From NCBI GenBank assembly GCA_002709235.1, contig PAQI01000021.1, positions 177,275-241,274 on the forward strand: a DNA stretch of 64,000 nt. The letters run 5' to 3'. Positions within the stretch are counted from its first letter, which is position 1. Each line of letters opens with the position of its first letter. This stretch comes from Hirschia sp. Lineage in GTDB: Bacteria > Pseudomonadota > Alphaproteobacteria > Caulobacterales > Hyphomonadaceae. Below are positions 31,764-47,726 of the stretch, in pieces. The notes beneath the pieces were generated by a model. It had not been told where the DNA came from. It made no database searches and saw only the letters and a list, made by a program, of their open reading frames with translations. The translations under genes were made by a program, and so were the position numbers.

Positions 31764-31875
31764 TTTTACCTTGAATCATTTAAAGTGAATTTGAACGAAT
31801 TTACCTCTCTGGATCAAAACGGGGCTTAAGCCTGATATGTCATGGTGGTCAGGTTTTAAGGGAAGACCAGACCCG

Positions 31876-32832: not shown

Positions 32833-34200
32833 TCAACAGCTGCTGTTGCTCGCAGCACGCCCCGCAAGCTTTCCGAAAGTTGTGGCCGTGAGCAGTCCAT
32901 TTCCAGCCATGTAGCCATCTGCGCCATCGCCTGATACGCCCCGTGCGGCTCCTCCTGCCGCATATAGATTGGCAAAGGGGGATCCGTCTTCCTTCAAGAC
33001 GCGGCCATTCTCATCGACCACGAGCCCGCCTTGAGTATGGAATAGTGCACCGGTGACTTTTGCAGAATAGTAGGGGGCCTTGAGCGGAGGCTTTCCGGTG
33101 AAATCGCGACCGAATGCGTCATCGCGTCTACCTGCAACACATGCATCCACTTCAGATTGGGTCTCAAGGAGCGCTTCAACCGGAAGATTCCGAATTGCTG
33201 CCATTTCCTCTAGCGTGGAGGCAGTTGTAACTGCACCTGCCGACCAGGCTTGCTGATAATCGTCAAAGTTCATCATGAGTTCGTGCAGTCGCTGGTCGAA
33301 TATGGACCATGCAACATGACCCGGTTGGGCATTTACATTCGCTGCCTGCTCGGAATAGCCCGCAGCTTCATTTGAAAACCTTTGGCCGTTTGCGTTGACC
33401 TGATACCCGCCCTCCATGATGAGTGGCCAGAGAATTGGAATGCCAAATCCAGCGGCGAGGCCGCCATGACCCTGATAAGCGCTCATGTCAGCCACAGCAG
33501 CGCCGAGTGATTGTCCCCAGCGGATGGCGTCACCCTTATTGCCGGGATGCCCATGATAGGTAGCATCAGCCATTTCTGGGATCCAGTGAGCCACCATTTC
33601 GGCATTTCCACCAAATCCGCAGCAAGCCAGTATCAATGCGTCGCACGTGACAGTCTCGGAAGCACCGTCCGGGGTCTGGTATCGGATGCCGGTTATGCGT
33701 TCGTCTTCTGACAGGAGCTCTGTAACGGTCGCGTTCGTCAGGATCGTGACATCTTGTCGTTCACAGGCAGCCAGAAGTGCACCCATGAGTTCGGTTCCTG
33801 AACGGTTGGGAGTCCCATACATGCGTTTCGCTGTATGCCCAGGATAAAGAAACCCATCGACAAGACTGAGCGGTACAGCGTGAGTGTCGCGCATCCAGGC
33901 GACTGTATCGGCAGACTCCCGAGCAAGCCGGAGTGCAATGTCCGCATCAGTCCGGCCCTTGGTCTTGGACAGGATGTCATTGGTGAAACGCTCTGGAGAA
34001 TCCTCAATCCCGGCGGCAATCTGTTCTGCAGTACCTGCCGCCGGTATGAGTCCGGTGGACATGGCAGTTGATCCCATAGGAGTGCCGTCGCGTTCTATGA
34101 CAAGAACCTCTGTGTCATTGTCTCGCACGGCAAGAGCAGCGCACAATCCGGCACCGCCACCGCCAATAATGATGACGGGAAAATGAAGTGTATCGGTCAC
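32833..34200 (-). CDS. FAD-dependent oxidoreductase, fumarate-reductase/succinate-dehydrogenase flavoprotein family
   Basis: A 455-residue flavoprotein. The FAD Rossmann site is VIIIGGGGAGLCAALAV (about 9-25) followed by MGSTAMSTGLIPAAG; the C-terminal FAD motif is NLYAAGGAARGVSG, ending GYMAGNGLLTATTFG. It lacks the cytochrome domain of flavocytochrome c. Relatives oxidise or reduce C=C bonds next to carbonyl groups (tricarballylate dehydrogenase, ketosteroid dehydrogenase, urocanate reductase). Its start overlaps the LeuD-like stop by 4 bp, so it belongs to the dehydratase transcript. I propose it sets the double bond of the pathway substrate. Confidence 0.8.
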   Translation of the reverse strand: MTDTLHFPVIIIGGGGAGLCAALAVRDNDTEVLVIERDGTPMGSTAMSTGLIPAAGTAEQIAAGIEDSPERFTNDILSKTKGRTDADIALRLARESADTVAWMRDTHAVPLSLVDGFLYPGHTAKRMYGTPNRSGTELMGALLAACERQDVTILTNATVTELLSEDERITGIRYQTPDGASETVTCDALILACCGFGGNAEMVAHWIPEMADATYHGHPGNKGDAIRWGQSLGAAVADMSAYQGHGGLAAGFGIPILWPLIMEGGYQVNANGQRFSNEAAGYSEQAANVNAQPGHVAWSIFDQRLHELMMNFDDYQQAWSAGAVTTASTLEEMAAIRNLPVEALLETQSEVDACVAGRRDDAFGRDFTGKPPLKAPYYSAKVTGALFHTQGGLVVDENGRVLKEDGSPFANLYAAGGAARGVSGDGADGYMAGNGLLTATTFGKLAGRAASNSSC

Positions 34201-34808
34201 GTCAAACTTGCCTTTCCAAGGTAAATCCAGGGTCGCGATTCAGCATCATGCGTTCGGAAGGATTCGATTTCTTCCAGCATTTTCAATGTAATATCGATTG
34301 GGTCCAATCCTTCGAGCAGCATTGTTCGCGCTTCGTCATCAAGCGTGAACGTCCAGGTCTCGCCAGCCTCGTTTGAAATGCAGCATGCCTCCAGATCGAC
34401 AGTCAGAGGCCCTGTGGATTCTGCCAGGGGTTGAGGCTTGAGCTGAATCGGCAATATGCCGTTACGAACGCAATTTCCTCGAAAAATGGGATTGAAACTG
34501 GGAGCGATAACGACGCGAATTCCGTATTCTGAGAGGGCCCAGGCAGCGTGCTCTCGACTTGATCCACATCCCATATTCTCTCCAGCCAGCAAAATCTGCG
34601 CGTCAGCGAAGGCAGGATCATTCAGGACAAAATCCGGTTGCGGTGTTCGTCCTCCGATTTCTGTATATCGCCAGCCAGCAAAGAGGCCCTCTGACAGGCC
34701 GTGTTTGGAGACTGATTTCATTTCACGGGAGGGAATGATGCAATCGGTGTCGATATTATTGCGGATGAGGGGAATTGCGATGGATGTGATCTGGCGTAGC
34801 GGCTTCAT
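34197..34808 (-). CDS. Aconitase-family dehydratase small subunit (LeuD-like), catabolic
   Basis: A 203-residue swivel-domain subunit. It has RNNIDTDCIIPSREMKS near the N-terminus and GENMGCGSSREHAAWALSEY followed by GIRVVIAPSFNPIFRGNC, matching 3-isopropylmalate dehydratase small subunits. ATG 34808 is preceded by a G-rich stretch. It overlaps the large-subunit gene by 4 bp. No leuA or leuB is near, while amidase, CoA-transferase and lyase genes are, so I favour hydration of a catabolic unsaturated diacid (citraconate- or dimethylmaleate-like) over leucine synthesis. Confidence 0.85.
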   Translation of the reverse strand: MKPLRQITSIAIPLIRNNIDTDCIIPSREMKSVSKHGLSEGLFAGWRYTEIGGRTPQPDFVLNDPAFADAQILLAGENMGCGSSREHAAWALSEYGIRVVIAPSFNPIFRGNCVRNGILPIQLKPQPLAESTGPLTVDLEACCISNEAGETWTFTLDDEARTMLLEGLDPIDITLKMLEEIESFRTHDAESRPWIYLGKASLT

Positions 34809-36220
34809 GTGCGAGCCCCCAGGCGTCGAGGATCGGTAATGCAACCGGATATAGCGGATGCGGCCACAGTTTCCGGTGAGGCAATATGTGTACGGGTCTG
34901 AGGCCCCTGACGACTTTCGAAATTGCGATTGGTGGATGACACCACGCGCTGTTTGGGGCCAAAGCTTTCTCCACCAGCGAAGAAGCACATCGAGCAACCC
35001 GACTCACGCCACTCAAACCCAGCTGCCTTGAAAATCAAATCCAGACCTTCGGCTTCCGCTGCTGCTTTTACAGCGCTTGAGCCCGGAACGCAGATGGCAT
35101 TGACCCCCTTGGCAACTCTGCGGCCTTTCAAAATAGCCGCCGCCCGCCGCAGATCTGGAAGTCGGCTATTGGTACAGGATCCGATAAATGCAGCGTCAAT
35201 CCTAAGTCCGCTGAGGCGGCCACCAGGTGTCAGACCCATATAAGTCAATGCGCGTTGATAGGATTCCTGCGTGTCGCGATGTGATACCTCATTGAACAGC
35301 GGTATGCGCTTATTGATGGGACAGCTTTGCTGGGGGCTTGTCCCCCAGCTGATTGTTGGCGCGATGTCGGTCGCATTTATCACGATATCTTCGTCATAAA
35401 TTGCTTCGGGATCTGACTTTATCTTACGCCATTCATTTACAGCGCGCACCCATTCCTCGCCCTTTGGTGCATAGGCGCGGTCTTTGAGAAACTCGAATGT
35501 CGTCTCATCGGGTGCAATGAATGCCGTGAAGGCGGACAGTTCTGTCGCCATGTTGCAAAGCGTCATCCGGCTTTCCATGCTCATGGCGCGTATGACGGGG
35601 CCTGCATATTCGATTGCAAAGCCCTTGGCACCAGCTGAGCTCAACTCACTTACAATATGAAGGGCGATGTCTTTAGCTGTCACGCCGACACCGGGTTCGC
35701 CTTCAATCGTGATGCGCATGATACGGGGTCTTTGCACCCGCAAGGTTGATGTTGCGAGTGCATGTTCGCCCTCTGATGACCCAATGCCCCATGCGAGCGC
35801 ACCGAAAGCGCCTTGTGTGCAGGTGTGGCTGTCAGGACAGACAAGTGTCGCACCGGGCAGAACGATTGCCATTTCCGGGGAGATCACATGCCCGATGCCC
35901 TGACGCGGATCTCCAAGGTCAAACAAGGTGACTCCGGCTCGCAAGGCGGTATCGCGTGTAACCGTGATGAAATCCTTGCCCGTGGGCATCTGGGTTGTGT
36001 CTGATCGACCGGGAATTGTGTCTACCACATGGTCCATTGTTACAAAGACATGTGAGGGATGACGGATAACGCGCCCGCTATCTTCCAGCGATTGCATGGC
36101 GACACCCCCCGTGCGTTCGTGGAGTAGAATTCGGTCGATGAGGAGGAGGTCATTGCTTTCGCCAAGTGGAGCGATGCGATGGCTTTCCCATATTTTTTCG
36201 ATCGCGCTCTTCTGCGTCAT
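34805..36220 (-). CDS. Aconitase-family dehydratase large subunit (LeuC-like), catabolic
   Basis: A 471-residue [4Fe-4S] hydro-lyase. It has VVDTIPGR near residue 65, VCPDSHTCTQGAFGALAWGI (first cluster Cys), FIGSCTNSRLPDLRRAAAIL, and GCSMCFFAGGESFGP (last two cluster Cys) then SSTNRNFESRQG. In true LeuC the residues after CSMC are LAMN; here they are FFAG, which points to a different substrate. It is the first gene of a three-gene minus-strand operon (large, small, flavoprotein), each joined by 4-bp overlaps, and diverges from the lyase operon. Confidence 0.85.
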   Translation of the reverse strand: MTQKSAIEKIWESHRIAPLGESNDLLLIDRILLHERTGGVAMQSLEDSGRVIRHPSHVFVTMDHVVDTIPGRSDTTQMPTGKDFITVTRDTALRAGVTLFDLGDPRQGIGHVISPEMAIVLPGATLVCPDSHTCTQGAFGALAWGIGSSEGEHALATSTLRVQRPRIMRITIEGEPGVGVTAKDIALHIVSELSSAGAKGFAIEYAGPVIRAMSMESRMTLCNMATELSAFTAFIAPDETTFEFLKDRAYAPKGEEWVRAVNEWRKIKSDPEAIYDEDIVINATDIAPTISWGTSPQQSCPINKRIPLFNEVSHRDTQESYQRALTYMGLTPGGRLSGLRIDAAFIGSCTNSRLPDLRRAAAILKGRRVAKGVNAICVPGSSAVKAAAEAEGLDLIFKAAGFEWRESGCSMCFFAGGESFGPKQRVVSSTNRNFESRQGPQTRTHIASPETVAASAISGCITDPRRLGART

Positions 36221-36418
36221 GCCATCCCGCTTTTGAGTGATCGACGCGCCGCTGCGTCGGATAGATATCTCGCTTTTTAAACAGTGCCATTTGTCCCGAC
36301 GCGACTATTCGTCCTTCAAATATCCGTTCTGCGAGTAATTCCGTCTTCCTGCGCAAGCGTGCGTATGCGCGGCTCTAGTGTGTCTGGCATGTTCTGAACA
36401 CAAGAGGAGCCAGCCAGT

Positions 36419-37375
36419 ATGGCCGCAGACATTGATATTCTTGTCAGTGAAGTCGGACCACGGGATGGTCTGCAAAGCATCAAGCCGATCCTGCCATTGG
36501 ACGCAAAAAAAGCGTGGATCCTTGCTGAGGCGGCTGCCGGTGTACGTGAGATCGAGGTGGGGAGTTTTGTGCCGGCCAGCGTGCTTCCCCAATTGGCGGA
36601 TACGGCAGAAGTAGTCGCCTTTGCGCGCACCATTCCCGACCTTGAGGTGGCTGTTCTGGCACCCAATGCACGTGGTGCGGAAAATGCCATCAAGGCGGGT
36701 GCTCACAAGATAACGCTGCCGTTATCGGTCTCCGAAAGCCACAGCCTGGCCAATCTCAAGCGCACACATGATCAGGTCATTGATGAGGCCACGCGCATTG
36801 CGCAGATGATCCGCGAACTGCCGGAAGACAAGCGCCCGCATTTCGAAGGAAGTCTCTCGACAGCGTTCGGATGCACGATAGAGGGGCAAATTCCACATAC
36901 CCAGATTGCCCGGCTGGCTGAGCGTCTGAAGAAAGCCGGATGTGATGAAATCGGCATTTCTGACACGACCGGATACGCAGACCCGCTAGCCGTCAGGCAG
37001 ATGGTCAAGCTTGTGCGCGCGGCAGTTGGCGATGAGGCCGTGACCGGTATTCATCTGCATAATACGCGGGGATTGGGGTTAGCCAATGTAGTGGCCGGTC
37101 TCGAAGAGGGGCTGACGACATTTGACGCGTCTCTTGGGGGGCTGGGCGGCTGCCCGTTCGCGCCAGGTGCCAGCGGAAATATCGTGACTGAGGACCTCGT
37201 TTTCATGTTGGAAGCGATGGGTCTGAAGACCGGCATAGACGTGGATAAGCTGTGCCAGGTTCGCAATATCCTGAAGTCTCACCTGCCAGACGAGCCGCTT
37301 TACGGGTTTGTTCCGGATGCGGGTGTGCCCAAAGGTTTTATCCCAGCAACTCCAGTCAGTGAGGTCTCCGCATGA
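36419..37375 (+). CDS. Hydroxymethylglutaryl-CoA lyase family protein (citramalyl-/hydroxyacyl-CoA lyase-like)
   Basis: A 318-residue TIM-barrel lyase of the HMGL-like family, which splits 3-hydroxy-3-methylacyl-CoA-type substrates by retro-Claisen cleavage. It has EVGPRDGLQSIK (catalytic Arg and metal Asp), EVGSFVPASVLPQ, GISDTTGYADP, HLHNTRGLGLAN (metal His pair) and GGLGGCPFAPGASGN with the catalytic Cys. GAGGAG lies upstream of ATG 36419. It leads an operon of four genes joined by 4-bp overlaps. In this setting the product could be acetyl-CoA or propionyl-CoA plus a keto acid. Confidence 0.85.
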   Translation: MAADIDILVSEVGPRDGLQSIKPILPLDAKKAWILAEAAAGVREIEVGSFVPASVLPQLADTAEVVAFARTIPDLEVAVLAPNARGAENAIKAGAHKITLPLSVSESHSLANLKRTHDQVIDEATRIAQMIRELPEDKRPHFEGSLSTAFGCTIEGQIPHTQIARLAERLKKAGCDEIGISDTTGYADPLAVRQMVKLVRAAVGDEAVTGIHLHNTRGLGLANVVAGLEEGLTTFDASLGGLGGCPFAPGASGNIVTEDLVFMLEAMGLKTGIDVDKLCQVRNILKSHLPDEPLYGFVPDAGVPKGFIPATPVSEVSA

Positions 37376-38058
37376 GCGAGATTATTGGAACGCGGATGGT
37401 GTCGGACGGACGCACAGCAAAACAGATCTTTGAAGATGTGATGGCGAACCCGGCGCGCGCCAAATTCGGATTTGGAGAAAAACTTGCGATCGTCAATGTG
37501 GATTTTCAGAACGCCTATACGCGCATTGACGAATTCAAGACGGCTTATGAAACGGACCCCAGGCAAATTGAATACGCCAATACGATATCGCGCCTTGCCC
37601 GGGAAAGGGGGATGCCGGTCATCTGGACCCATGTGGCTTATATGGACAGCGCGGCAGATGCAGGCGTCTGGGGCACGCGCACGGATACGCCCGACAGCTT
37701 GCAGAACATCAAATATGATAGCCGGCGTCATGCATTTGATGACCGCTGCGAGATTGATCATTCAGTCGACGCTGTATGGACCAAGCGCATGCCGTCTGCC
37801 TTTTTCGAGACACCCCTAAAAAGCCTGCTGACCTGGCACAAGGTCGATACGGTCGTGGTTACCGGCGGATCCACCTCGGGATGCATTCGGGCTACAGCGG
37901 TCGACAGCCTCTCCAATGGCTACCGCACGATTGTGCCGATCGAGACCTGCGCGGACAAGCATGAGAGCTACCACTACGCCAATCTGACCGACCTTCAGCT
38001 GAAATATGCCGATGTCGTGCATGTGCAGGAGGTAATTGACTGGTTGGAGGTGAAGTGA
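37372..38058 (+). CDS. Isochorismatase-like cysteine amidohydrolase (N-carbamoylsarcosine amidase/maleamate amidase type)
   Basis: A 228-residue cysteine hydrolase with the catalytic triad in place: Asp in IVNVDFQNAYTRID, Lys in VWTKRMPSAFFETPL and Cys in TGGSTSGCIRATAVDSL. The STSGC-R context is that of carbamoylsarcosine amidases and maleamate amidohydrolase (NicF), not of true isochorismatases. It would release ammonia from a half-amide or carbamoyl compound. It is coupled by 4-bp overlaps both to the lyase gene before it and to the first imidase-like gene after it, which supports its place between ring opening and hydration. Confidence 0.85.
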   Translation: MSEIIGTRMVSDGRTAKQIFEDVMANPARAKFGFGEKLAIVNVDFQNAYTRIDEFKTAYETDPRQIEYANTISRLARERGMPVIWTHVAYMDSAADAGVWGTRTDTPDSLQNIKYDSRRHAFDDRCEIDHSVDAVWTKRMPSAFFETPLKSLLTWHKVDTVVVTGGSTSGCIRATAVDSLSNGYRTIVPIETCADKHESYHYANLTDLQLKYADVVHVQEVIDWLEVK

Positions 38059-38993
38059 TGCGCGAAGGAGAAAAAGATCCCGGGCTTTACGATTTTCGTC
38101 CCTATCGTGATCGGCCTGAGATCAAATGGCCCGGAGACATGGGCGTGGCGGTTTGGGTGTCGCCCAATCTTGAAGTCTATGAGCTGGATCCGCCGGTAAA
38201 CCCGCACCGCAAGAGCTGGCCTCGGCCACATCCGGATGTGGTGGGTTATGGCCATCGCGATTATGGCAACCGCGTCGCGCATTGGCGCATGGCTGAGACC
38301 ATGGCGAAATATGGCTTTCCTGGATCGGTGTCCCTGTCCGTGGCCATGTGCCAGCACATCCCGGAAATCATTGAACACGCTTCAGGTCTGGGGTGGGAGT
38401 TCTTTTCCCACGGTATTTACAATACCCGCTATTCCTATGGCATGGATGAGGCTCAGGAACGTGCCATCATCGAGGACTCCATCAAGACAGTGCGGGATGC
38501 GACCGGGCAGACAATCAAGGGCTGGCTGGCACCTGCGCTGACCCATACGCCGCGCACAATGGATCTGATCGCCGAATATGGTCTGACCTATACTTGCGAC
38601 CTTTATCACGACGACCAGCCTGCGCCTGTTCATGTCAAATCCGGCAAGCTGATTTCCATGCCCTACAGCCTGGAGGTGAATGATCACTACGGCTTCTTCG
38701 TCTACAATATGAGCCCGCGCGAATATGCCGATACCTTGATCCGACAATATGATCGGCTTGCAGATGAAGGCGGAGGGACAGTCATGTGTATTCCTCTGCA
38801 CGCCTATCTCATCGGCCAACCTCACCGCATTGGGCCTTTTGCAGATGTGCTGAAACACATCAACGCAGATGGTCGTGCATGGGTCACGACATCCGGTGCG
38901 ATCGCGGATCATTACATTAAAACGGCCTATGACGCCACAATCGCCGATACGCGCCGCTATGCACCTGACACAGCGAAAGGCAAAGACAGATGA
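38055..38993 (+). CDS. Polysaccharide-deacetylase-fold amidohydrolase 1 (PuuE allantoinase/cyclic imidase-like)
   Basis: A 312-residue NodB-fold protein of the metal-independent-looking PuuE group. The Asp-Asp of sugar deacetylases is absent; the first motif reads VWVSPNLEVYE, and the His region is EFFSHGIYNTRYSYG. GWLAPALTHTPRT and CIPLHAYLIGQPHR follow. Members include PuuE allantoinase and a cyclic imide hydrolase, both opening small N-heterocycles. It is tandem with a second, divergent paralogue (38990-39898), with a 4-bp overlap, so the two may form one enzyme. Confidence 0.8.
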   Translation: MMREGEKDPGLYDFRPYRDRPEIKWPGDMGVAVWVSPNLEVYELDPPVNPHRKSWPRPHPDVVGYGHRDYGNRVAHWRMAETMAKYGFPGSVSLSVAMCQHIPEIIEHASGLGWEFFSHGIYNTRYSYGMDEAQERAIIEDSIKTVRDATGQTIKGWLAPALTHTPRTMDLIAEYGLTYTCDLYHDDQPAPVHVKSGKLISMPYSLEVNDHYGFFVYNMSPREYADTLIRQYDRLADEGGGTVMCIPLHAYLIGQPHRIGPFADVLKHINADGRAWVTTSGAIADHYIKTAYDATIADTRRYAPDTAKGKDR

Positions 38994-39898
38994 CGCTTGA
39001 TCCTTCCTGCCTTGAATATCCCAACCGCCGTCGCGGCATGGATCACGATCTTTACGACTGGTCCTGTATTCTTGATCGAAATGTACCAGCATGGCCTTCG
39101 GGAAAGCCTGTTGCTGCCGCGGTGTTGGTCTCGCTGGAATGGTTTCCCATTCTTCCGGAAGACAACCCCTTTCGGGCACCGGGACATATGCAGACAGCCT
39201 ATCCCGATTACCGCCACTACACATCCCGAGAATATGGAACCCGGGTGGGCTTTTATCGGTTTCTCGACGCTTTCAATTCTCATGGAGTGAAGGCTTCTAT
39301 TGCGGTCAACAGTGCGATCGCAGAACGCTATCCTTCGATCATTTCAGATATCGTGTCGGAGGGGCATGAGATCATCGCTCACGGCCGCGATATGAATGAC
39401 GTGATTGCAACCGGTATTGCGGAAGACGAAGAACGTCGCATCATTGATGAAAGCCTGGAAACGCTGGAACGCATATCGGGTACGCGCCCACGCGGCTGGA
39501 TGTCCATTGCGCGCAGCCAGAGCTTCAATACGCCGGGCCTCCTGAAGGCGGCCGGTATCGAATATATGTGTGACTGGGTGAATGACGACCTGCCTTATGC
39601 TTTTCGGTCTGGGTTCGGGGAAATACTCAGCATTCCCTATAACCACGAACTGTCTGATCGTCAGATCATTACCGTCCAACAGCATTCAGCGGAAAGCTAT
39701 GTCGAGCAGATGAAGGATGCCTGCGATTGGCTGGCATCCGAAAAGGTGCCTCGCATTCTACCGCTTCATGTCACGCCTTACATTCTGGGGCTTCCATATC
39801 GAATGGCAGCTTTTGAAGAATTGCTGGGCTGGCTGTCGAAACGTGAGGACACAGAATTCCTGACAGCTAGCGGTCTCGCAATGCCTTACCTGTCCTGA
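38990..39898 (+). CDS. Polysaccharide-deacetylase-fold amidohydrolase 2 (PuuE/imidase-like paralogue)
   Basis: A 302-residue paralogue of the preceding protein. Its first motif is AVLVSLEWFPILPE, the His region is EIIAHGRDMNDVI, and RGWMSIARSQSFNTPG and ILPLHVTPYILGLPYR follow. The low similarity between the two suggests different substrates or a heteromeric enzyme with one catalytic and one structural chain. It ends the tight four-gene run that starts at 36419; the next gene on the strand begins 160 bases later. Confidence 0.78.
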   Translation: MTLDPSCLEYPNRRRGMDHDLYDWSCILDRNVPAWPSGKPVAAAVLVSLEWFPILPEDNPFRAPGHMQTAYPDYRHYTSREYGTRVGFYRFLDAFNSHGVKASIAVNSAIAERYPSIISDIVSEGHEIIAHGRDMNDVIATGIAEDEERRIIDESLETLERISGTRPRGWMSIARSQSFNTPGLLKAAGIEYMCDWVNDDLPYAFRSGFGEILSIPYNHELSDRQIITVQQHSAESYVEQMKDACDWLASEKVPRILPLHVTPYILGLPYRMAAFEELLGWLSKREDTEFLTASGLAMPYLS

Positions 39899-40058
39899 AA
39901 ATGGGTAGTTAGCCTGATTTTCATGCGCTTTGGCGGTGCCTCGGGTCATGATGTCCCACCCTTGTCCGCCTGACGAACAAACAGATTGGCCTTCATTGCT
40001 GATTTGTATGCAGAAGCGTCCACTTGGTGACGTTGCCAATGTAATTTGAGGAAAACGA

Positions 40059-41258
40059 ATGTCGCCTGCAATCAAGCCCTTGTCCGGTATCAAGGTGATT
40101 GAGTTTACGCATATGGTCATGGGGCCTGCTGCCGGTCTTGTGCTGGCAGACCTTGGGGCTGACGTCATCAAGGTTGAACCCATTGACGGTGACAAGACAC
40201 GACGTCTGAAAGGGTCCGGTGCAGGTTATTTTGCGATGTATAATCGCAACAAGAAAAGCATCTGTCTTGATCTTAAAAGCGAGAAGGGCACTCAGATCGC
40301 TCACAAGCTGATTGCTGGCGCAGATGTCTTTATCGAAAATTTCCGCCCCGGAGCCTTGGATAAGCTGGGCTTTGGTTATGACGCTCTTTCAAAAGTCAAT
40401 CCGGCTTTGATCTACTGTTCGGAAAAGGGCTTTCTTCCCGGTCCGTATGAAAACCGCACAGCGCTGGATGAAGTCGCACAGATGATGGGTGGTCTCGCTT
40501 ATATGACCGGCCCGCCGGGAAGGCCCTTGCGTGCAGGAGCATCTGTGATTGACGTCACTGGGGGGATGTTCGGTGCCATCGCTGTTCTTGCTGCCTTGCA
40601 GGCACGCAATCAAACGGGAAAGGGCCAGCATGTTTCTGCTTCCCTTTATGAAACCACAGTATTTTTGGTGGGCCAGCACATGGCGCAGTTTGCAGAGACA
40701 GGCAGTCCTGCAGCTCCGATGCCTGCTCGGATTTCAGCTTGGGCCGTCTATGATGTGTTCGATGTAAGGGAAGACGAAAAAGTCTTTGTCGGCGTGGTGT
40801 CTGATACGCAATGGCGACTGTTTTGTGATGCGTTTGATCTGACCGAATGGCGCAATGACCCTACGCTGGCTGCAAACAATGACCGTGCCGCGCGGCGCGA
40901 CCTGATCATTCCGCGTCTGCGCGAGATATTTTTGACCATGACCAAAGCCGAATTGATGGAAAAGCTGGAAAAGACCGGCTTGCCTTTCGCACCAATCGCA
41001 AGGCCTGAAGAGCTGTTTGACGATCCGCATCTGAATGCCGATGGCGGTCTGCTGGAGATGACGCTGCCATCAGGCAAAGAGGTGAAACTGCCATCCATGC
41101 CAATTCAAATGGGTGAGGGGCGGCCAGGCCTTTATCTTGATCCGCCTGTTTCAGGTGCCCACACCGTTGAAGTGCTCTCGGAGATTGGTTTCTCCCAGTC
41201 CGATATTGATGAAGTACTCCTTGCCGGAGTGGCGCAGGATGCCCCAGAGCGCAGCTAA
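40059..41258 (+). CDS. Class III CoA-transferase (CaiB/BaiF family)
   Basis: A 399-residue formyl-CoA-transferase-type enzyme that exchanges CoA between carboxylic acids. It has IKVIEFTHMVMGPAAGLVL and LGADVIKVEP at the start, FIENFRPGALDKLG, and the catalytic Asp in NRTALDEVAQMMGG. The SD is GAGG before ATG 40059. With the dehydratase and HMGL-like lyase it forms the usual trio for activating and cleaving a hydroxy-diacid such as citramalate. Donor and acceptor acids are not known. Confidence 0.88.
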   Translation: MSPAIKPLSGIKVIEFTHMVMGPAAGLVLADLGADVIKVEPIDGDKTRRLKGSGAGYFAMYNRNKKSICLDLKSEKGTQIAHKLIAGADVFIENFRPGALDKLGFGYDALSKVNPALIYCSEKGFLPGPYENRTALDEVAQMMGGLAYMTGPPGRPLRAGASVIDVTGGMFGAIAVLAALQARNQTGKGQHVSASLYETTVFLVGQHMAQFAETGSPAAPMPARISAWAVYDVFDVREDEKVFVGVVSDTQWRLFCDAFDLTEWRNDPTLAANNDRAARRDLIIPRLREIFLTMTKAELMEKLEKTGLPFAPIARPEELFDDPHLNADGGLLEMTLPSGKEVKLPSMPIQMGEGRPGLYLDPPVSGAHTVEVLSEIGFSQSDIDEVLLAGVAQDAPERS

Positions 41259-41315
41259 ATCTAACGATCCTCCCATGAACCGAGCCAGAGCCAGGCGACA
41301 TAGCGAGATAAGATA

Positions 41316-42740
41316 ATGAATGAGATATCTGCTGACAAAGGCGCTGATGCGCGTGGCTCCGAGGATGAGTCGAAGGACAGAATTCCGTTCGCCGTGTGTA
41401 CGGGGTACGGTATCGGATCATTGGGCATTTCAATCATGCTCAATACAATCACCATCTTCTTTCCGGTATTGATGACGACGGTCCTGGGACAGTCTGCAGC
41501 ACTTGCAGGCATCCTGCTGACCGTTTCCAAGCTCTATGATGTGGTCGCAGACATCGTCATTGGTGTGGCCAGCGACAAGACACGCACGCGGATTGGTCGA
41601 AGGCGTCCCTACCTGTTTGCGGGAGCTGTAGTCGGGGCGTTTTCATTTTTCATGATCTTCCTTGCTCCGCCGATGACGGAGACATTGCTGATACTCTATA
41701 TGGGGGCAGCTCTGATCATCTATTCCACCGGTTATTCTCTCTTTGCGGTGCCATATATCGCAATGGCTGGAGAAATGACGGATGGTTATCATGAACGCAC
41801 GCGGCTGCTGTCCTTTCGGACATTCTTCGTTTCCATCGGGCAATTGCTGTCGGCTGCGGGCATGGCCGCCATTGTGAAGGTGGCCGGCGGTGGCTCTACA
41901 GGCTACGCCGTGATGGGGGCAGCTGCTGGAACACTGGTGTTCACAACCATGTTCATTTCCTTTCTGGGAACCCGCAGGGCGCGCTCTGTTGAACGTGATG
42001 TGACAACAAAGCCAATACCCGGGATGCAGCAGGTGAAAAGCCTGATTGCCAACTTGCCTTTCATGCAGCTGATGGGCGCAAAGACATTCCTCTATCTGGC
42101 CATTTCAGTGATCAGCACCACGAAACTGCTTTTCCTGCTCAATGTTCTGAAAGTGGGTTATGATGGGCTCGTAAGCCTGACGGTATCGCAGAATGTGGTG
42201 GCCATGTTCATGGTGCCGGTCTGGACCTGGGCAGGGCGTCGGTTTGGCAAGACCCAATGTTATTTGGCCGCCATTGGTATTTTGAGTCTTCTTTATGCAA
42301 GCTACATGTTTACAACGGAGGGCATCTCAACGCTCGAACTTTACATTCGTGGCGCAATAAATGGAGTTGCTGCAGCGGGTGTGACCCTGATGGGAATTTC
42401 GATGTTGCCAGACGTGATGGAATACGACCGCAAGGTCACGGGCCAGCGTCGTGAGGGCGTTTATTCCAGCATATATGCAACAATGGAAAAGGTGGCTTTT
42501 GCGATCGGTCCAGGCCTTGTCGGGGTTTATCTTGCAGCGGCAGGGTTTGTCTCCACAACGGGTGGAGAAATCGTCGATCAGCCCGATAATGCAGTTCGCG
42601 CCCTCTATATTGGTATTTCGGCTGCCCCTGCTATTTTGACGGCGATCAGTTTTCTGATCATGTCACGCTACAAGCTTAATGAGCAGTCATTGCGTGCGAT
42701 GCCCGAATACAAGAAAGTTGAAGTCGAGATGCAGGCATGA
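41316..42740 (+). CDS. MFS/GPH-family transporter (glycoside-pentoside-hexuronide:cation symporter type)
   Basis: A 474-residue transporter with about 12 hydrophobic helices. The GPH signatures are present: KLYDVVADIVIGVASDKTRTRIGRRRPYL after helix 2 (shortened core VVADIVIGVASDKTR) and PYIAMAGEMTDGYHERTRL. It is likely the uptake system for the cluster's substrate. GPH members mostly take sugars, but those placed in catabolic clusters of sphingomonads and relatives also carry other solutes. It overlaps the next gene by 4 bp. Confidence 0.85.
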   Translation: MNEISADKGADARGSEDESKDRIPFAVCTGYGIGSLGISIMLNTITIFFPVLMTTVLGQSAALAGILLTVSKLYDVVADIVIGVASDKTRTRIGRRRPYLFAGAVVGAFSFFMIFLAPPMTETLLILYMGAALIIYSTGYSLFAVPYIAMAGEMTDGYHERTRLLSFRTFFVSIGQLLSAAGMAAIVKVAGGGSTGYAVMGAAAGTLVFTTMFISFLGTRRARSVERDVTTKPIPGMQQVKSLIANLPFMQLMGAKTFLYLAISVISTTKLLFLLNVLKVGYDGLVSLTVSQNVVAMFMVPVWTWAGRRFGKTQCYLAAIGILSLLYASYMFTTEGISTLELYIRGAINGVAAAGVTLMGISMLPDVMEYDRKVTGQRREGVYSSIYATMEKVAFAIGPGLVGVYLAAAGFVSTTGGEIVDQPDNAVRALYIGISAAPAILTAISFLIMSRYKLNEQSLRAMPEYKKVEVEMQA

Positions 42741-43780
42741 GTGATACCCTCCAACTCAAACAGACCGGGCGCGCTCTGATGGAGTTTGAGGTCAGCGCAC
42801 GCCAATTGGCGAACCAGCTACACCGGACCGCCGAGAGTGAATTATCGGCGCTGGGCATAGTGTCTGAAGAGTTGCCGGACGAATTGTCGGAACGACGCAA
42901 AATCGTGGACTCTGCTCTCGCAGAGAGTCGGACTTTCCGCCTGCGACATATTCTGGGAGATTATTGCTGGCGTGAACATGGGCGGGCCGCATTGGCTGCC
43001 TTTGCGGAAATCGAAGACGAATTGCCACAGGAGGATCTTTCCTCGGGGTCAGTCAAGATCGATGAGAATCCTGATTTTGAACCTCCAGCCTATTGGGCCA
43101 CTAGTCGGTTTCACCGCACTGAAGGCGGCTGGGATGGTCATGCTCGGATGGGAGAAATCCATGGGGAGATCGTGCACAAGCAATATGTCGCAAAGATATT
43201 CCCGGGCGATATCTACGCCAATCGCCGTGCAGTGGCTTCCAAGGCACCGCGGAAGGATTACAGTGCTATTCTGGAAATCGGTGTTTCGTCTGGACACTAC
43301 ACTGTTGCATTAAGTGACATTTTTCCAGACGCGCAGATTCATGGCGTGGACCCTTCCTTGCGAATGCTCGAACAAGCAGCGCGGGTGGGAAATGCACGTG
43401 GTTCAGAGTGGAAGCTGAAAGTCGCGACAGGTGAATCCACAGGGTATGACGATGCCAGGTTCGATCTGGTCACCGCATATGCTGTTCATCATGAAATGCC
43501 GCCCAAAGCCATAGACGCCATGTTTCATGAGACATTCAGAATCCTGAAGCCGGGTGGCGATCTCATCTTTGCTGATGTTCCAAGATATGCAGATATCGAC
43601 AAGCTGAGCGCGTGGCGGTTTGACTGGCTTGGCCGACATGGCGGAGAGCCATTCTGGACACCTTCAGCCATGCTCGATCTGGCGACCATGGCGCAGGCAG
43701 CCGGCTTTGAGATTGTTGCATCCGAACATCTGCAACCTCGTCAGGATATCTACTATTTGATTGCGAGAAAGCCCGTATGA
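42737..43780 (+). CDS. Class I SAM-dependent methyltransferase with N-terminal extension
   Basis: A 347-residue protein. The C-terminal half is a Rossmann methyltransferase: ILEIGVSSGHYTVALSD (motif I), HGVDPSLRML, FDLVTAYAVHHEMPP and RILKPGGDLIFADVP. The first about 150 residues are a helical domain that I do not recognise. It is locked by 4-bp overlaps between the transporter gene and the small gene after it. A methyltransferase is unexpected in a degradative operon; it could handle an N- or O-methyl group or a toxic intermediate. Confidence 0.8.
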   Translation: MSDTLQLKQTGRALMEFEVSARQLANQLHRTAESELSALGIVSEELPDELSERRKIVDSALAESRTFRLRHILGDYCWREHGRAALAAFAEIEDELPQEDLSSGSVKIDENPDFEPPAYWATSRFHRTEGGWDGHARMGEIHGEIVHKQYVAKIFPGDIYANRRAVASKAPRKDYSAILEIGVSSGHYTVALSDIFPDAQIHGVDPSLRMLEQAARVGNARGSEWKLKVATGESTGYDDARFDLVTAYAVHHEMPPKAIDAMFHETFRILKPGGDLIFADVPRYADIDKLSAWRFDWLGRHGGEPFWTPSAMLDLATMAQAAGFEIVASEHLQPRQDIYYLIARKPV

Positions 43781-44055
43781 GCCGACGTCCGACTGATCCG
43801 CCTGAAACAGCGATATTGAAAGATGCGCATATTGATGACGTTGCGCGCGGATTGCTTGCATTGGCACGTGAGGTCTGGGTGTTGACGGATCGGGTGATGA
43901 TCATGGAAGCCCTGCTGGAAGATCGCGGCGTTTCATCGGGCATGATTGACAATTTTCAACCTGATGAAAAACTCGAACTTGAATTGAAGAAACGCCGCGA
44001 GGCCATGTTAGGGCGACTGATGACGGCTATGGGGGCGGAAGGCCTGAACACCTAG
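43777..44055 (+). CDS. Small hypothetical helical protein
   Basis: A 92-residue protein, not recognised. It seems all-helical: LKDAHIDDVARGLLALAREV, then a helix containing WVLTDRVMIMEALLEDRG, and a charged C-terminal helix (KLELELKKRREAML). It has no signal peptide. It could be an accessory subunit of the methyltransferase or monooxygenase. It overlaps the methyltransferase by 4 bp, and its stop shares a palindrome with the stop of the convergent hydrolase. Confidence 0.65.
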   Translation: MSRRPTDPPETAILKDAHIDDVARGLLALAREVWVLTDRVMIMEALLEDRGVSSGMIDNFQPDEKLELELKKRREAMLGRLMTAMGAEGLNT

Positions 44056-44876
44056 GTGTTTGAATCCAGAAAGCTGTTGATCCGTTCGGCAATCTGGCGG
44101 GCCATAAACGAAAACATGCCGTGGCGCGTGCCGGGCAGCTCGCAGATCTCGGCGTTCCCAATAAGGGCAGCTGTCTGACTTGTGATTTCAAACAGATCAT
44201 CATGTGCATTCAACACCAGTGTAGGCTGGTTGACCTGCCTGAGTGCGGCGCGCATGTCATAGCGGTAGACTGCGTCATATCCCCAGAATGCACGTCTGCC
44301 TGAACGCAGGTTCTCAACCACAGACCTGCTGAGCCAGTCCAGATCCGCTCTGGAATCGGTGAGGGATCGGCAGATCTTCCACATATCTGCTAGATGGGTG
44401 CCATTTTCGTCAGCTACCGGCTTGCCTTTGATAGCTGCCAGTTTCTGGATGCGGGTGTCTTCATCAAAAGCGGGAAGTGAAACCAGAACGAGGGCGTTGA
44501 CCCGATCAGGATGGCTAACCGCCATCTGCGTCGCGATAGCCGAGCCGGTGTGATACCCCAATAGATCAACAGAGTGAGGCGACAGTTCTGGAATGCTATT
44601 GGCCAGAGCACCTAGCAAAGTCCATATTTCTGTCGCGTAATCGGCAATCACAACAGGGCCGGGCGGTGGCGCGCTTGCACCATAGCCTGGCGTGTCCGGA
44701 GCAATTACAATTCGCCCGCAAAAAGCAAGATGCGGCATCAGATCTTCATAGATCCATCCACTTTTGGGGGTGGGATGCAACAGCAGGATTGGTGCTTTGT
44801 TAGTGGCAGTCGCCGGAAGGCAGATTCGATAGTGAATCTGCCCCCAGCGTCCTTCAACATAACCCTTGGAGATCAT
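44052..44876 (-). CDS. Alpha/beta hydrolase with His at the nucleophile position
   Basis: A 274-residue alpha/beta hydrolase. It has LLLHPTPKSGWIYEDLMP (oxyanion loop), then DTPGYGAS, and the nucleophile elbow LLGYHTGSAIA, where the usual Ser, Asp or Cys is His. The acid lies in VLNAHDDLFE and the catalytic His in PGTRHGMFSF. Either the reaction does not use a covalent Ser, as in some decarboxylating or cofactor-free members, or the neighbouring Thr takes part. It overlaps the upstream M24 gene by 4 bp, so the pair is one transcript. Confidence 0.85.
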   Translation of the reverse strand: MISKGYVEGRWGQIHYRICLPATATNKAPILLLHPTPKSGWIYEDLMPHLAFCGRIVIAPDTPGYGASAPPPGPVVIADYATEIWTLLGALANSIPELSPHSVDLLGYHTGSAIATQMAVSHPDRVNALVLVSLPAFDEDTRIQKLAAIKGKPVADENGTHLADMWKICRSLTDSRADLDWLSRSVVENLRSGRRAFWGYDAVYRYDMRAALRQVNQPTLVLNAHDDLFEITSQTAALIGNAEICELPGTRHGMFSFMARQIAERINSFLDSNT

Positions 44877-46177
44877 GCGCTTTGAGTCAGGACGGGCGAT
44901 TTTGCCCGATCATATGGCGTTGCAGGCCGTATCCGAAGCGATGTGTCGCAATTGGTCAGGGGCTCCACACCATTCGCGGTCACGAGGATCTGGTCTTCCA
45001 TGTGGAGGTTACCCCAGCCGATCTCGTAATATGGCATGTCCAGCGAGAAGACCATGTTCTCTTCGAAGACGAAATCTCCATTGCCGCCTGGCAGTGTCGG
45101 GCCGACAGGGAGAGGGTGATCGGAGTGTTCCAGACCGATGGAGTGGGGAGTGGCAAAGAAGAAGCCCTCAAATCCGGCCTTTTTGACAGCATCTACGACA
45201 GCCGCACTGACCTCCGACCCGGTAATCCCGGGCTTGACCATCTTGAGGACAGTCTGACAGCCAACATCAATGGCTTTCATGCGATCTACCAGATCCTGGC
45301 GCGGCGTGCCGCAAATTGCGACACGGCCAAGATCACCATGATAATTGCGATACTCGCATAAGCCGTCAAACGTGATGGGCTCGTTTTCCAGAATACCGCC
45401 CAAATTGTTGTTCGTGCCGCTTTGCCCGGTGGCCAGATACAAGGCACGGGCACCACGCTTGGCGACCTCTGTGTTGTATATGACTTCCAGTTCCGAACGA
45501 GGCATGCCGACACGAAGATTGTCGAAGACTGCTTCCAGACAATCCTCGTTGATTTTGGCAACTGTCCGCATGAGTTCGATCTCATCTGGAGATTTTGCCA
45601 TGCGTATTTCGCGGAAGGTGGAGTAGGCGTCTGTCACCGTCAGGTCAGTCAGACCGATATCCTGTAGCCAGCCACCAATCCGAGGATCATCGCTACCCAC
45701 GCGGCCATTTGCCAGCCCAGCTTCGATCAGGCCTTTTTTCAGCGCGTAAGTGGCGTTCACCGAGGCGCGACCCTTGTGGTCTTCCATATAGGCCAGATAC
45801 TCTTCGTCACGCGGGCTGAGCTTGTCGTAATTGATCGGCCATTTCATTCCGTATTCAACGGCTTCCGGGTCTTCCACTTCAGGGTCAAAGTCACGACGAT
45901 CAAGATAGACTGGATGTACATAGGGCAAACGGTTCGGCATCCAGGTCATATCAGGTCTGTGGAAAAAGCGCAGATGTTCAACGCCGGAAACAATGATCGC
46001 GGCTTTGGCTGATGGATCGCGGGGAAGCAGGGCGTAATTATAGAATGTGCGCTTCATGCGCATCAGCGCGCCCCAATAATCTGACAGATAATAGATATTG
46101 ACTGGAGATACAGCAATCAGGCCGTCCAGGCCCTCTCGATCCATGATTGCATAAGCGCGTTCTTTATTGAGCAGCAT
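44873..46177 (-). CDS. M24-family (creatinase/Xaa-Pro peptidase-like) metallohydrolase
   Basis: A 434-residue pita-bread-fold enzyme. The N-terminal creatinase-type domain starts AYAIMDREGLDGLIAVSPVN. The metal ligands partly match the peptidase pattern: two Asp in the D-x10-D run from FDGLCEYRNYHGDLGR, His in TPHSIGLEHSDHP, and the last Glu in HMEDQILVT. The usual EPG Glu is Asp (FSLDMPYYE). This group includes creatinase, ectoine hydrolase DoeA and prolidases, so a small C-N substrate is more likely than a peptide. It is divergent from the flavin monooxygenase gene. Confidence 0.82.
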   Translation of the reverse strand: MLLNKERAYAIMDREGLDGLIAVSPVNIYYLSDYWGALMRMKRTFYNYALLPRDPSAKAAIIVSGVEHLRFFHRPDMTWMPNRLPYVHPVYLDRRDFDPEVEDPEAVEYGMKWPINYDKLSPRDEEYLAYMEDHKGRASVNATYALKKGLIEAGLANGRVGSDDPRIGGWLQDIGLTDLTVTDAYSTFREIRMAKSPDEIELMRTVAKINEDCLEAVFDNLRVGMPRSELEVIYNTEVAKRGARALYLATGQSGTNNNLGGILENEPITFDGLCEYRNYHGDLGRVAICGTPRQDLVDRMKAIDVGCQTVLKMVKPGITGSEVSAAVVDAVKKAGFEGFFFATPHSIGLEHSDHPLPVGPTLPGGNGDFVFEENMVFSLDMPYYEIGWGNLHMEDQILVTANGVEPLTNCDTSLRIRPATPYDRAKSPVLTQSA

Positions 46178-46346
46178 TGTTTATCTCCATTTGGGTTTTC
46201 AAACCGAAATGGAATTTACCGGATCAAACCTGCCCAAGGTCGAATTGGAAGTCGGAATATCTACCTGACGATCAAATGTGAGTTTGGAGTGGATACTCTC
46301 ACGCTCGATCCCGCAATCTGTCATCTGACAAATATTTGGGAGCCGC

Positions 46347-47726
46347 ATGATGAATTCTAGACGCAAACGCCAGATGCACCTGTTCGCCATGCCGATGGGC
46401 TCAGGAGGACATCTTGCAGGATGGCGGCTCTCGGGATCCGGTGCCGAAAAGCTGATGACACTGGAATATTGGAAAGAGATAGCTCAATTGTCCGAAGCAG
46501 GCTGCTTTGATGCTCTTTTCATTGCAGATTCTCAAGGCTTCCGAATAATTGAAGGGGCTGATGCCTTTTGCCAAACGGACGCCGTTCGGCTTGACCCTGT
46601 GACCTTACTCGCTGCTCTGAGCGCATGTACTCGTCATCTTGGTCTCGTCGCAACAATGTCGACCAGCTACAACGAACCCTACATAGCCGCACGCCGACTG
46701 GCGACACTCGACCATCTGTCCGGGGGGCGCGCTGCGTGGAATGTCGTGACGTCTACCAGCGAAAATGAAGCGCACAATTTCGGGCGTGATGTCCATTTTG
46801 GACATGCTGAGCGTTATGAACGCGCAAGTGAATTTGTGGATGTGGTCAAGGCGCTCTGGGACGGGTGGGATGATGATGCATTTGAATATGATCGTCAGGG
46901 AGCGCGCTTCTTCAATCCGGATAAAGTGCACGGTCTGTATTACAAGGGAGACCATTTCAGTGTTGCCGGGCCATTGACGCTGGGGCGCCCTCCGCAAGGT
47001 CACCCGGTAATCGTGCAGGCCGGCGCATCCAGCGCAGGACTTGATCTCGCCGCACGAACCGCAGATGCAGTTTTTACCTCACATCCAAAGCTGGAAAGCG
47101 CCATAGCGTTCTACGCTGACCTGAAGGCAAGGGTCGTGGCAGCTGGTCGCCCTGCCGACAGTCTGAAGATCATGTGTGCAATACAGCCTGTAGCGGCAGC
47201 CTCAAAATCTGAAGCGGAAGCAGAGGTCGCAGATCTTAACGCGCTCATCCCTGATAATCTTGCGATGGGTTACCTTCAGATGTCGATCGGTGGTGTCGAC
47301 CTGTCAGCCCATGACCCGGATGGGCCCCTGCCGAATTTGCCAGCGAGCAATGCATCCCAAGCGACGCGGCAGCGCATAATCGACATGTCGGAAAAGCAGG
47401 GCATGAGCATTCGTCAGATAGCACGCAAAATGGCGGAAAGTCGTACATCGCATGCCCTCGCAGGAACACCCGGCATGATCGCAGATCAAATGCAGGAATG
47501 GTTTGAGAAGGGCGCTGCAGATGGCTTTGTCATCGCCCCGCCAGCATTGCCGATGATGTTGCGCAGCTTTGTCGAACTGGTCGTGCCGGAGCTTCAGTCA
47601 CGGGGACTTTTGCGAGTTAGCTATGAGGGCGACACCTTGCGGGATCGGCTTGGATTGCAACGTCCGGTCAACCGTTATGAAGTTGACCCATCCTTGCACC
47701 AGGAACCAGAAATTTGGCACCCCTGA
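46347..47726 (+). CDS. Flavin-dependent (LLM class) monooxygenase, NtaA/SnaA/DszA family
   Basis: A 459-residue bacterial-luciferase-like monooxygenase that needs reduced FMN from a separate reductase. It shows the NtaA-type start (HLFAMPMGSGGHLAGWRL), YWKEIAQLSEAGCFDALFIAD, ARRLATLDHLSGGRAAWNVVTS, EFVDVVKALWDGWD and PVIVQAGASSAGLDLAAR. Relatives attack C-N or C-S bonds (nitrilotriacetate, EDTA, sulfones, pyrimidines via RutA). No flavin reductase gene is in the window. GGGAG precedes ATG 46347. It is probably the first oxidative step of the cluster. Confidence 0.88.
   Translation: MMNSRRKRQMHLFAMPMGSGGHLAGWRLSGSGAEKLMTLEYWKEIAQLSEAGCFDALFIADSQGFRIIEGADAFCQTDAVRLDPVTLLAALSACTRHLGLVATMSTSYNEPYIAARRLATLDHLSGGRAAWNVVTSTSENEAHNFGRDVHFGHAERYERASEFVDVVKALWDGWDDDAFEYDRQGARFFNPDKVHGLYYKGDHFSVAGPLTLGRPPQGHPVIVQAGASSAGLDLAARTADAVFTSHPKLESAIAFYADLKARVVAAGRPADSLKIMCAIQPVAAASKSEAEAEVADLNALIPDNLAMGYLQMSIGGVDLSAHDPDGPLPNLPASNASQATRQRIIDMSEKQGMSIRQIARKMAESRTSHALAGTPGMIADQMQEWFEKGAADGFVIAPPALPMMLRSFVELVVPELQSRGLLRVSYEGDTLRDRLGLQRPVNRYEVDPSLHQEPEIWHP

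Follow-up and report, generated by a model that had tools for sequence, protein, structure and literature searches.

A conserved seven-gene core in Hirschia and other bacteria as a candidate route for breakdown of a substituted cyclic imide

Introduction

Older work on the bacterial degradation of cyclic imides describes an imidase together with a half-amidase. Comparable functions may be encoded in a 64,000-nucleotide stretch of DNA from Hirschia sp. (Alphaproteobacteria, Hyphomonadaceae; assembly GCA_002709235.1, contig PAQI01000021.1, positions 177,275 to 241,274 of the forward strand), which is referred to here as the window. A preliminary description had read thirteen genes at 32833-47726 of the window as one route for the degradation of a cyclic imide or related N-heterocycle. 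The present analysis partly supports that description: its core idea stands, while the thirteen-gene pathway does not.

Several described systems resemble parts of this gene set. Anaerobic nicotinate fermentation ends with dimethylmaleate hydratase and 2,3-dimethylmalate lyase, which act on an alkylmalate. The likeness lies in a LeuCD-type hydratase and a lyase of the isocitrate-lyase/phosphoenolpyruvate (PEP)-mutase family, such lyases accompanying the genes studied here in 23 of 125 loci; one of them (in locus L046) has 2,3-dimethylmalate lyase (3fa3) among its solved relatives, although 4iqd and methylisocitrate lyases are closer. The window itself differs in having a class III coenzyme A (CoA)-transferase (CaiB) and an HMGL-family lyase (HMGL) instead. 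Pathways of the nic/pic type employ an isochorismatase-family maleamate amidase, and unsubstituted maleate is isomerised to fumarate; an amidase of this family is common to both, but the window follows it with a hydratase and a C-C lyase. A further analogy is leucine biosynthesis (LeuA/LeuC/LeuD) run backwards, with which the window has in common a hydratase of the isopropylmalate-isomerase type and a C-C enzyme of the HMGL superfamily, whereas a LeuC paralogue, a distinct LeuD loop, a CoA-transferase and nitrogen-releasing enzymes set the window apart. Finally, allantoinase PuuE is homologous to two proteins of the window (PuuE1 and PuuE2), but both lie far under its equivalog cut-off.

In the HxnM/HxnN system of the Aspergillus nidulans nicotinate pathway, an imidase of the PuuE superfamily opens 3-hydroxypiperidine-2,6-dione and an amidase frees ammonia, according to PMC9304392. 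The window would follow the same succession of PuuE-superfamily imidase and amidase in the breakdown of an N-heterocycle. It is unlike that system in that the product of HxnM is alpha-hydroxyglutaramate, while the window has two divergent PuuE-like proteins, an amidase of the isochorismatase family, and a hydratase, CoA-transferase and lyase. Imidase-amidase chemistry is known. The action of a hydratase and a lyase on alkylmalates is known as well. No description of this gene set, including the combination of these ring-opening and amidase genes with CaiB and HMGL, was found among the titles and abstract openings that searches of open-licence papers returned, and this combination is probably undescribed.

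Results

Co-occurrence of the core genes in the family

Seven of the thirteen genes, namely those for an isochorismatase-family amidase (isochorismatase below), PuuE1, PuuE2, LeuC, LeuD, CaiB and HMGL, look like one unit. A search with PuuE1 gave matches in 111 of 385 genomes of the class (at E 1e-20) and in 27 of 101 genomes of the family, that of the window included. Twenty-five of these 27 were counted, as they carry a PuuE1 orthologue of at least 52% identity (the copy in genome G471 being a fragment); G408 and G411, whose PuuE-like genes are only 32-35% identical, were left out. LeuC (E 1e-140) was found in exactly the same 25 of the 101 genomes, while HMGL (E 1e-60) and CaiB (E 1e-100) were each found in 24, all of them inside the PuuE1 set. 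The only PuuE1 genome without HMGL and CaiB is a fragmented assembly (G401), and none of LeuC, HMGL and CaiB was detected at these thresholds in the 76 family genomes that do not have PuuE1. One-sided Fisher tests against PuuE1, in which kinship is ignored, returned p values of 3e-24 for LeuC, 2e-22 for HMGL and 2e-22 for CaiB. The core genes occur together, as the preliminary description would have it when it proposed co-occurrence of these families as a check.

Position alone does not explain this pairing, since the two modules are far apart or on separate contigs in 12 of the 23 other genomes with both PuuE1 and HMGL: the distance between the two is at most 11 kb in 11 genomes and 35-514 kb in five, while the genes lie on different contigs in the remaining seven.

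Neighbourhoods of PuuE1 in 125 loci

We then compared 125 loci, all picked by PuuE1 similarity and many of them close kin, so that the counts do not represent independent events. They comprise 40 from relatives (L046-L085), 80 mostly from Sphingomonadaceae or their kin (L086-L165, the best 80 of 576 confirmed; Peristeroidobacter L126 is an exception to the Sphingomonadaceae-like titles) and five from plasmids (L166-L170, taken from the 51 plasmid records that PuuE1 matched). Presence and absence were scored by tblastn because simple open reading frame (ORF) calls in GC-rich loci are partly in the wrong frame (e.g. L066 and L071).

The isochorismatase-PuuE1-PuuE2 cassette was found in 119 of the 125 loci (36/40, 78/80 and 5/5 in the three sets); it is missing from L076, L081, L084 and L085 and from two loci on short contigs, L136 and L139. 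Within the stretches fetched, LeuC is present in 82 loci (17/40, 61/80 and 4/5), and HMGL and CaiB occur together in 7/40, 59/80 and 3/5. A lyase, of either the HMGL or the PEP-mutase/isocitrate-lyase type, is also carried by 79 of the 82 loci with LeuC. The PEP-mutase type is present without HMGL in 11 loci, while 12 have both types.

The plasmids provide compact examples of these arrangements. In Sphingobium TomTYG65 and Sphingomonas JE1 the two hydratase-lyase sets are adjacent, in the order LeuCD-CaiB-HMGL-isochorismatase-PuuE1-PuuE2-LeuCD'-lyase'. Burkholderia plantarii p1 has a hydratase, a flavoprotein and a PEP-mutase-type lyase next to a GntR gene, the cassette and an MFS gene, and the cluster of Acidiphilium multivorum JZ-6 includes CaiB, HMGL, the cassette, LeuCD, a flavoprotein, a porin and an MFS gene. 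In Comamonas endophytica the cassette lies among other catabolic genes, and this hydratase and lyase were not found in the stretch seen. A second HMGL/CaiB pair and hydantoinase/oxoprolinase-type genes were observed beside the cluster on an Acidiphilium plasmid (L168, 23286-28882), and similar genes were recognised by eye in L046 and L047.

In one relative (G405; L189-L190-L050, C1:1660001-1717000), the cassette and lyase module are part of a catabolic region of approximately 45 kb. Pfam matches in this region include a TonB receptor, an SDR protein, a third PuuE-like gene, a VOC protein, an HpcH/HpaI lyase, a protein of the mesaconyl-CoA-hydratase family and a second CoA-transferase; an amidase, an aldehyde dehydrogenase, an FAD oxidase and a carbon-nitrogen hydrolase were recognised by similarity, and further genes by eye only. 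Many of the gene families of this region were found again in G399, G403 and G452.

Enzymes of the cassette

PuuE1 and PuuE2 both contain a Polysacc_deac_1 domain and are homologous to PuuE structures, and hence belong to the PuuE/polysaccharide-deacetylase-like superfamily. All of the 125 homologues of PuuE1 keep the motif PN[LIV]E.YE, 124 keep SHG.YNTR and at least 123 keep PLH. A relative of both proteins that matches less strongly than PuuE is 3qbu, which is described as imidase-related in PMC9304392. PuuE1 is 71-85% identical to copies that are mostly from Sphingomonadaceae, 78-80% identical to those of two family members and 52-60% identical to the remaining family copies, a pattern that could reflect either an ancient duplication or exchange of the gene between lineages.

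The Asp, Lys and Cys residues of the family are all in place in the isochorismatase protein, which belongs among the isochorismatase-family amidases. The motif TSGC.RA is present in 121 of 121 homologues, and among the motif classes listed Asp is kept in at least 109 and Lys in at least 112. Its nearest solved chains are 4l07/4l08, which we take to be Pseudomonas putida S16 maleamate amidase, followed by N-carbamoylsarcosine amidohydrolases.

Hydratase, CoA-transferase and lyase

LeuC carries the iron-sulphur cysteine motifs GSCTN and GCSMC. It scores above the cut-off of subfamily PRK12466 (656.9 versus 531 bits) and under that of the leuC equivalog TIGR00170 (537.6 versus 560.25 bits), while LeuD exceeds the equivalog-domain cut-off of TIGR00171 (190.5 versus 116.25 bits). 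As the same genome encodes a second LeuC that is 45% identical to that of the window, the window LeuCD is a dedicated paralogue. The LeuD loop reads DTDCIIPSREM in the window, and SRE[MI] is found in nearly all copies of the same type. A second LeuD type, next to a PEP-mutase-type lyase in seven loci, has the loop ARFL, and a third type, in five loci, has PG.Y[ML]K. The arginine of the SREM loop was considered as proof of a third carboxylate in the substrate and dropped; the residues that come after it vary. Two hydratase sets with two unrelated lyases per locus were observed in L047, L109, L111, L112, L114, L166 and L167, with SREM in one LeuD loop and ARFL in the other.

The HMGL lyase contains HLHNTRG and GGCPFAPGASGN, and the RDG, HxH and Cys motifs are present. 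It scores above the cut-off of PRK05692, the HMG-CoA lyase subfamily (273.2 versus 246 bits), and is the sole close HMGL match in its own genome. HLHNTRG is kept in 73 of 76 homologues; the best solved relative, 6nds, has a similar motif, while human HMG-CoA lyase reads HCHDTYG instead. The nearest solved chain of CaiB is a succinate--hydroxymethylglutarate CoA-transferase, and the protein scores 237.4 bits against the 750 bits of the succinate--glutarate CoA-transferase model NF052585. At its SL[YF]ETT site (SLYETT in the window), Glu is found in 71 and Asp in two of 75 homologues; Glu also occurs in 10uh, and Asp in 4ed9.

Proposed pathway and alternatives

On balance, we consider it probable that the core encodes one catabolic pathway for a C-substituted five-membered cyclic imide of the maleimide/succinimide type, or for its half-amide. 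A hydratase with a C-C lyase, CoA-dependent or CoA-independent, points to a substituted malate and hence to a substituted maleate; a substituted maleate with an amidase and the PuuE pair points, in turn, to a substituted maleamate and maleimide, or, in variants that carry the flavoprotein, to the succinimide form. We infer every reaction and substrate from protein families. PuuE1, which PuuE2 would assist as a partner or complement as a second enzyme, would hydrolyse the ring to a half-amide of the maleamate type, from which the isochorismatase-family enzyme would free ammonia to give a substituted maleate; variants with the flavoprotein would first dehydrogenate a saturated, succinate-type diacid. 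The LeuCD-like hydratase would then add water, producing a substituted malate, of which the class III CoA-transferase would form the CoA thioester, and cleavage of this thioester by the HMGL-type lyase would yield a 2-oxo acid and an acyl-CoA, such as pyruvate with either acetyl-CoA or propionyl-CoA. In other lineages the isocitrate-lyase/PEP-mutase-family enzyme found with the cassette may cleave the free alkylmalate without CoA. The order of ring opening, deamidation, hydration, CoA activation and cleavage put forward in the preliminary description is one that the protein families allow.

A number of observations weigh against this reading, and some of them speak for a rival. PuuE1 and PuuE2 score 107.8 and 100.6 bits, respectively, against the 424.6 bits of TIGR03212, the allantoinase PuuE equivalog, and the solved relative closest to both is allantoinase PuuE and no proven imidase. 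PuuE2 is more variable, its His-Gly and PLH motifs not being constant among homologues, and so it may be a partner subunit or a catalytic enzyme in its own right. The isochorismatase matches an N-carbamoylsarcosine amidohydrolase at 95 bits, nearly equal to the 104 bits of 4l07. The allantoinase and carbamoylsarcosine matches would suit a hydantoin or ureide pathway modelled on the breakdown of allantoin or N-methylhydantoin, in which the PuuE pair would open a ring of the hydantoin type, the isochorismatase would hydrolyse the resulting N-carbamoyl compound, and LeuCD, CaiB and HMGL would act on another part of the molecule; a ureidoglycolate-lyase-family gene in L090 and the hydantoinase/oxoprolinase-type genes of L168 would agree with this. 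Amino acids from hydantoins need no hydratase/lyase module, yet the module has the same genome set, and the isochorismatase is far under the cut-offs of the biuret hydrolase model and of the RutB ureidoacrylate amidohydrolase equivalog (29.8 versus 377.95 bits for the latter). Hydantoin-type rings, which the preliminary description had also named as substrates, are a poor fit, as the downstream enzymes handle dicarboxylates and not amino acids, and we regard such a pathway as unlikely. Further points on the opposing side are that PuuE1, LeuC, HMGL and CaiB were profiled across genomes and isochorismatase, PuuE2 and LeuD by neighbourhood only, that the HMGL family includes true HMG-CoA lyase too, that a lyase occurs without LeuC in eight loci and LeuC without a lyase in three, and that 38 of the 125 loci have neither lyase in the fetched stretch (20/40, 17/80 and 1/5). 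These 38 loci, the separation of the modules in 12 of 23 family genomes, and the resemblance of HMGL and CaiB to HMG-CoA lyase and succinate-hydroxymethylglutarate CoA-transferase would also be expected of two unrelated pathways that travel together, one scavenging ureide or amide nitrogen and the other degrading a leucine- or HMG-type acid. However, judged by the four profiled genes, none of the 101 genomes has a single module, the fragmented G401 (without HMGL and CaiB) excepted, and the presence of a non-homologous lyase with the cassette in some other taxa preserves the chemistry and not the genes; we find co-travelling quite unlikely.

A degradation of a pyridine ring, similar to that of nicotinate, would arrive at an alkylated maleamate by ring cleavage, with the PuuE proteins acting on a non-imide amide. 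The position of the isochorismatase near the 4l07/4l08 chains would fit, as would the LLM flavin monooxygenase and alpha/beta-hydrolase of the window and a gene of the Asp/Glu racemase superfamily, which presumably includes maleate isomerase, near the cassette (L167 21612-22400, with a near-identical copy in L166). The LLM gene, however, is not conserved with the core, the racemase-family gene is found in only two of the 85 loci L086-L170, and no 2,5-dihydroxypyridine dioxygenase was recognised among the scanned families, no systematic search having been aimed at one; this route, too, seems to us an unlikely one. The pathway may also start from larger N-heterocyclic natural products, the imide arising only late in their degradation, a concern raised by the added enzymes in regions such as that of G405; the seven genes would then be the lower section shared by several different upper pathways. 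We see this as a version of the explanation that we prefer and not as an exclusive alternative, and we put it at somewhat under an even chance. The flanks vary by lineage (GntR, TonB receptors, FAD oxidase, aldehyde dehydrogenase, carbon-nitrogen hydrolase, VOC proteins and methyltransferases) while the core recurs, and the G405 region of approximately 45 kb adds its third PuuE-like, mesaconyl-CoA-hydratase-family and HpcH/HpaI-type lyase genes; against it, the clusters of L168 and L170 look nearly self-contained, with a porin and an MFS transporter.

For a C-substituted imide entering the proposed pathway, a natural source can be suggested only speculatively. Disposal of the rings of tetrapyrroles, in the form of dialkylmaleimides (ethyl-methyl- and vinyl-methylmaleimide, haematinic acid) from chlorophyll, haem and bilins, strikes us as a long shot, and it is just as doubtful that the two hydratase-lyase sets (HMGL/CaiB and PEP-mutase-type; L047, L166 and L167) would treat two kinds of ring substituent. 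A gene for an HbpS-like 'haem degrading protein' (PF03928) lies near the cassette at L105 15303-15719, and would lend the tetrapyrrole idea weak support at best. Routes through citrazinate/aconitate or 3-methylglutaconate were set aside on general knowledge: aconitate would need no lyase, and the hydration of methylglutaconate is unsuited to aconitase-type chemistry.

Organisation of the locus and accessory genes

All thirteen ORFs of the preliminary description are intact at the coordinates that it gave, and Pfam/NCBIfam profile matches back the family of each protein (Table 1). That description had the genes tied by 4-bp overlaps, which holds for seven pairs: FAD/LeuD, LeuD/LeuC, HMGL/isochorismatase, isochorismatase/PuuE1, PuuE1/PuuE2, GPH/methyltransferase and alpha/beta-hydrolase/M24. 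The LeuD/LeuC overlap assumes that LeuD starts at its internal ATG; as called mechanically, the ORF extends to 34997. Four coupled blocks result: flavoprotein-LeuD-LeuC (minus strand), HMGL-isochorismatase-PuuE1-PuuE2 (plus strand), GPH-methyltransferase, and alpha/beta-hydrolase-M24. CaiB and the LLM monooxygenase are not coupled in this way and each stands alone. The LeuC and HMGL genes are divergent, with their starts back to back and 198 bp between them.

Table 1. The thirteen genes at 32833-47726 of the window (FAD, flavin adenine dinucleotide; SAM, S-adenosylmethionine)
Feature	Coordinates	Strand	Family evidence
FAD flavoprotein	32833-34200	-	Pfam FAD_binding_2; flavocytochrome c / tricarballylate dehydrogenase superfamily
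LeuD-like hydratase small subunit	34197-34808	-	Aconitase_C
LeuC-like hydratase large subunit	34805-36220	-	Pfam Aconitase
HMGL-family CoA-dependent C-C lyase (predicted)	36419-37375	+	HMGL-like; PRK05692 above cut-off
Isochorismatase-family amidase, proposed half-amidase	37372-38058	+	Isochorismatase domain
PuuE1, PuuE/cyclic-imidase-like putative ring-opening hydrolase	38055-38993	+	Polysacc_deac_1
PuuE2, second divergent PuuE-like protein	38990-39898	+	Polysacc_deac_1
CaiB, class III CoA-transferase	40059-41258	+	CoA_transf_3
GPH-type symporter, possible importer in window variant	41316-42740	+	MFS_2
SAM-dependent methyltransferase	42737-43780	+	Methyltransf_25
Alpha/beta-hydrolase	44052-44876	-	Family matches all under cut-off
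M24 (Xaa-Pro peptidase/ectoine-hydrolase-like) protein	44873-46177	-	Pfam/NCBIfam matches
LLM flavin monooxygenase, NtaA/DmoA family	46347-47726	+	TIGR03860 above cut-off

Composition reveals no island border, GC content being 0.50-0.56 across 24-56 kb in 2-kb windows, and a promoter/terminator scan, with 13 and 15 sites where 10.7 and 13.2 were expected, was uninformative. In three relatives (L186-L188), whose pyrD proteins are 57-60% alike, the cluster is not found downstream of pyrD within 20 kb; no empty site is shown by this. A 325-aa protein (window 31837-32814) adjoins pyrD and has no NCBIfam match at E 0.001.

The single route originally proposed placed ten of the thirteen genes, leaving out the methyltransferase, the alpha/beta-hydrolase and the M24 protein, and beyond the seven-gene core it contracts further. 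The flavoprotein scores under the NCBIfam cut-offs listed for it, for example 176.5 versus 369 bits for TcuA and 252.3 versus 285.45 bits for flavocytochrome c. It occurs in seven of the 101 family genomes, all among the 25 with PuuE1 (p 3e-5), two of the seven copies being only 39-40% alike; among the 85 loci L086-L170, it is present in ten at 46% identity or more, with seven more at 26-29%. It belongs to a subset of genomes, as a variant-specific accessory that might convert a saturated diacid into the unsaturated form.

The LLM monooxygenase exceeds the TIGR03860 NtaA/DmoA cut-off (518.2 versus 279.7 bits). It had been proposed as an enzyme that modifies the ring, and as a first core step it was rejected: a homologue (E 1e-80) is found in just one of the 100 other family genomes, at 40% identity, making it a variant-specific accessory at most. 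Homologues that are 47-54% identical lie near the cassette in L116, L135, L149 and L151. In L135, L149 and L151 (Novosphingobium), two LLM monooxygenases and an M24 protein were observed near the cassette, an arrangement reminiscent of the window's right half.

The GPH transporter, alpha/beta-hydrolase and M24 protein are also outside the core, their homologues close to the cassette being few or weak. Homologues of the GPH protein, earlier taken for the pathway importer, were found in six of the 85 loci and exceed 50% identity only in L087; those of the alpha/beta-hydrolase in five (28-35% identity); and those of the M24 protein in four (28-30%). The alpha/beta-hydrolase would be an accessory at most, and the link of the M24 protein to the pathway is uncertain. 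In 48 of the 85 loci the cassette is found with related, longer methyltransferases that have an extended N-terminal part (a further example being L190 1673-2908), while a near-full-length match to the form in the window occurs, among the best matches listed, only in L113 (53%); its membership in the pathway is likewise uncertain.

Significance

This gene set is present or absent nearly whole in one family and recurs in many Sphingomonadaceae, which suggests that its natural substrate is probably a common one; no such substrate was found named in the open-licence papers searched. Furthermore, the cassette is also carried on plasmids of Sphingobium, Sphingomonas, Acidiphilium, Comamonas and Burkholderia. 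The public labels of polysaccharide deacetylase, 3-isopropylmalate dehydratase and hydroxymethylglutaryl-CoA lyase are probably misleading for these enzymes. Were the tetrapyrrole idea true, bacteria would gain a way to use the carbon and nitrogen of tetrapyrroles. More generally, naming the substrate would allow the labels to be corrected and would bring to light a nitrogen source in the environment.

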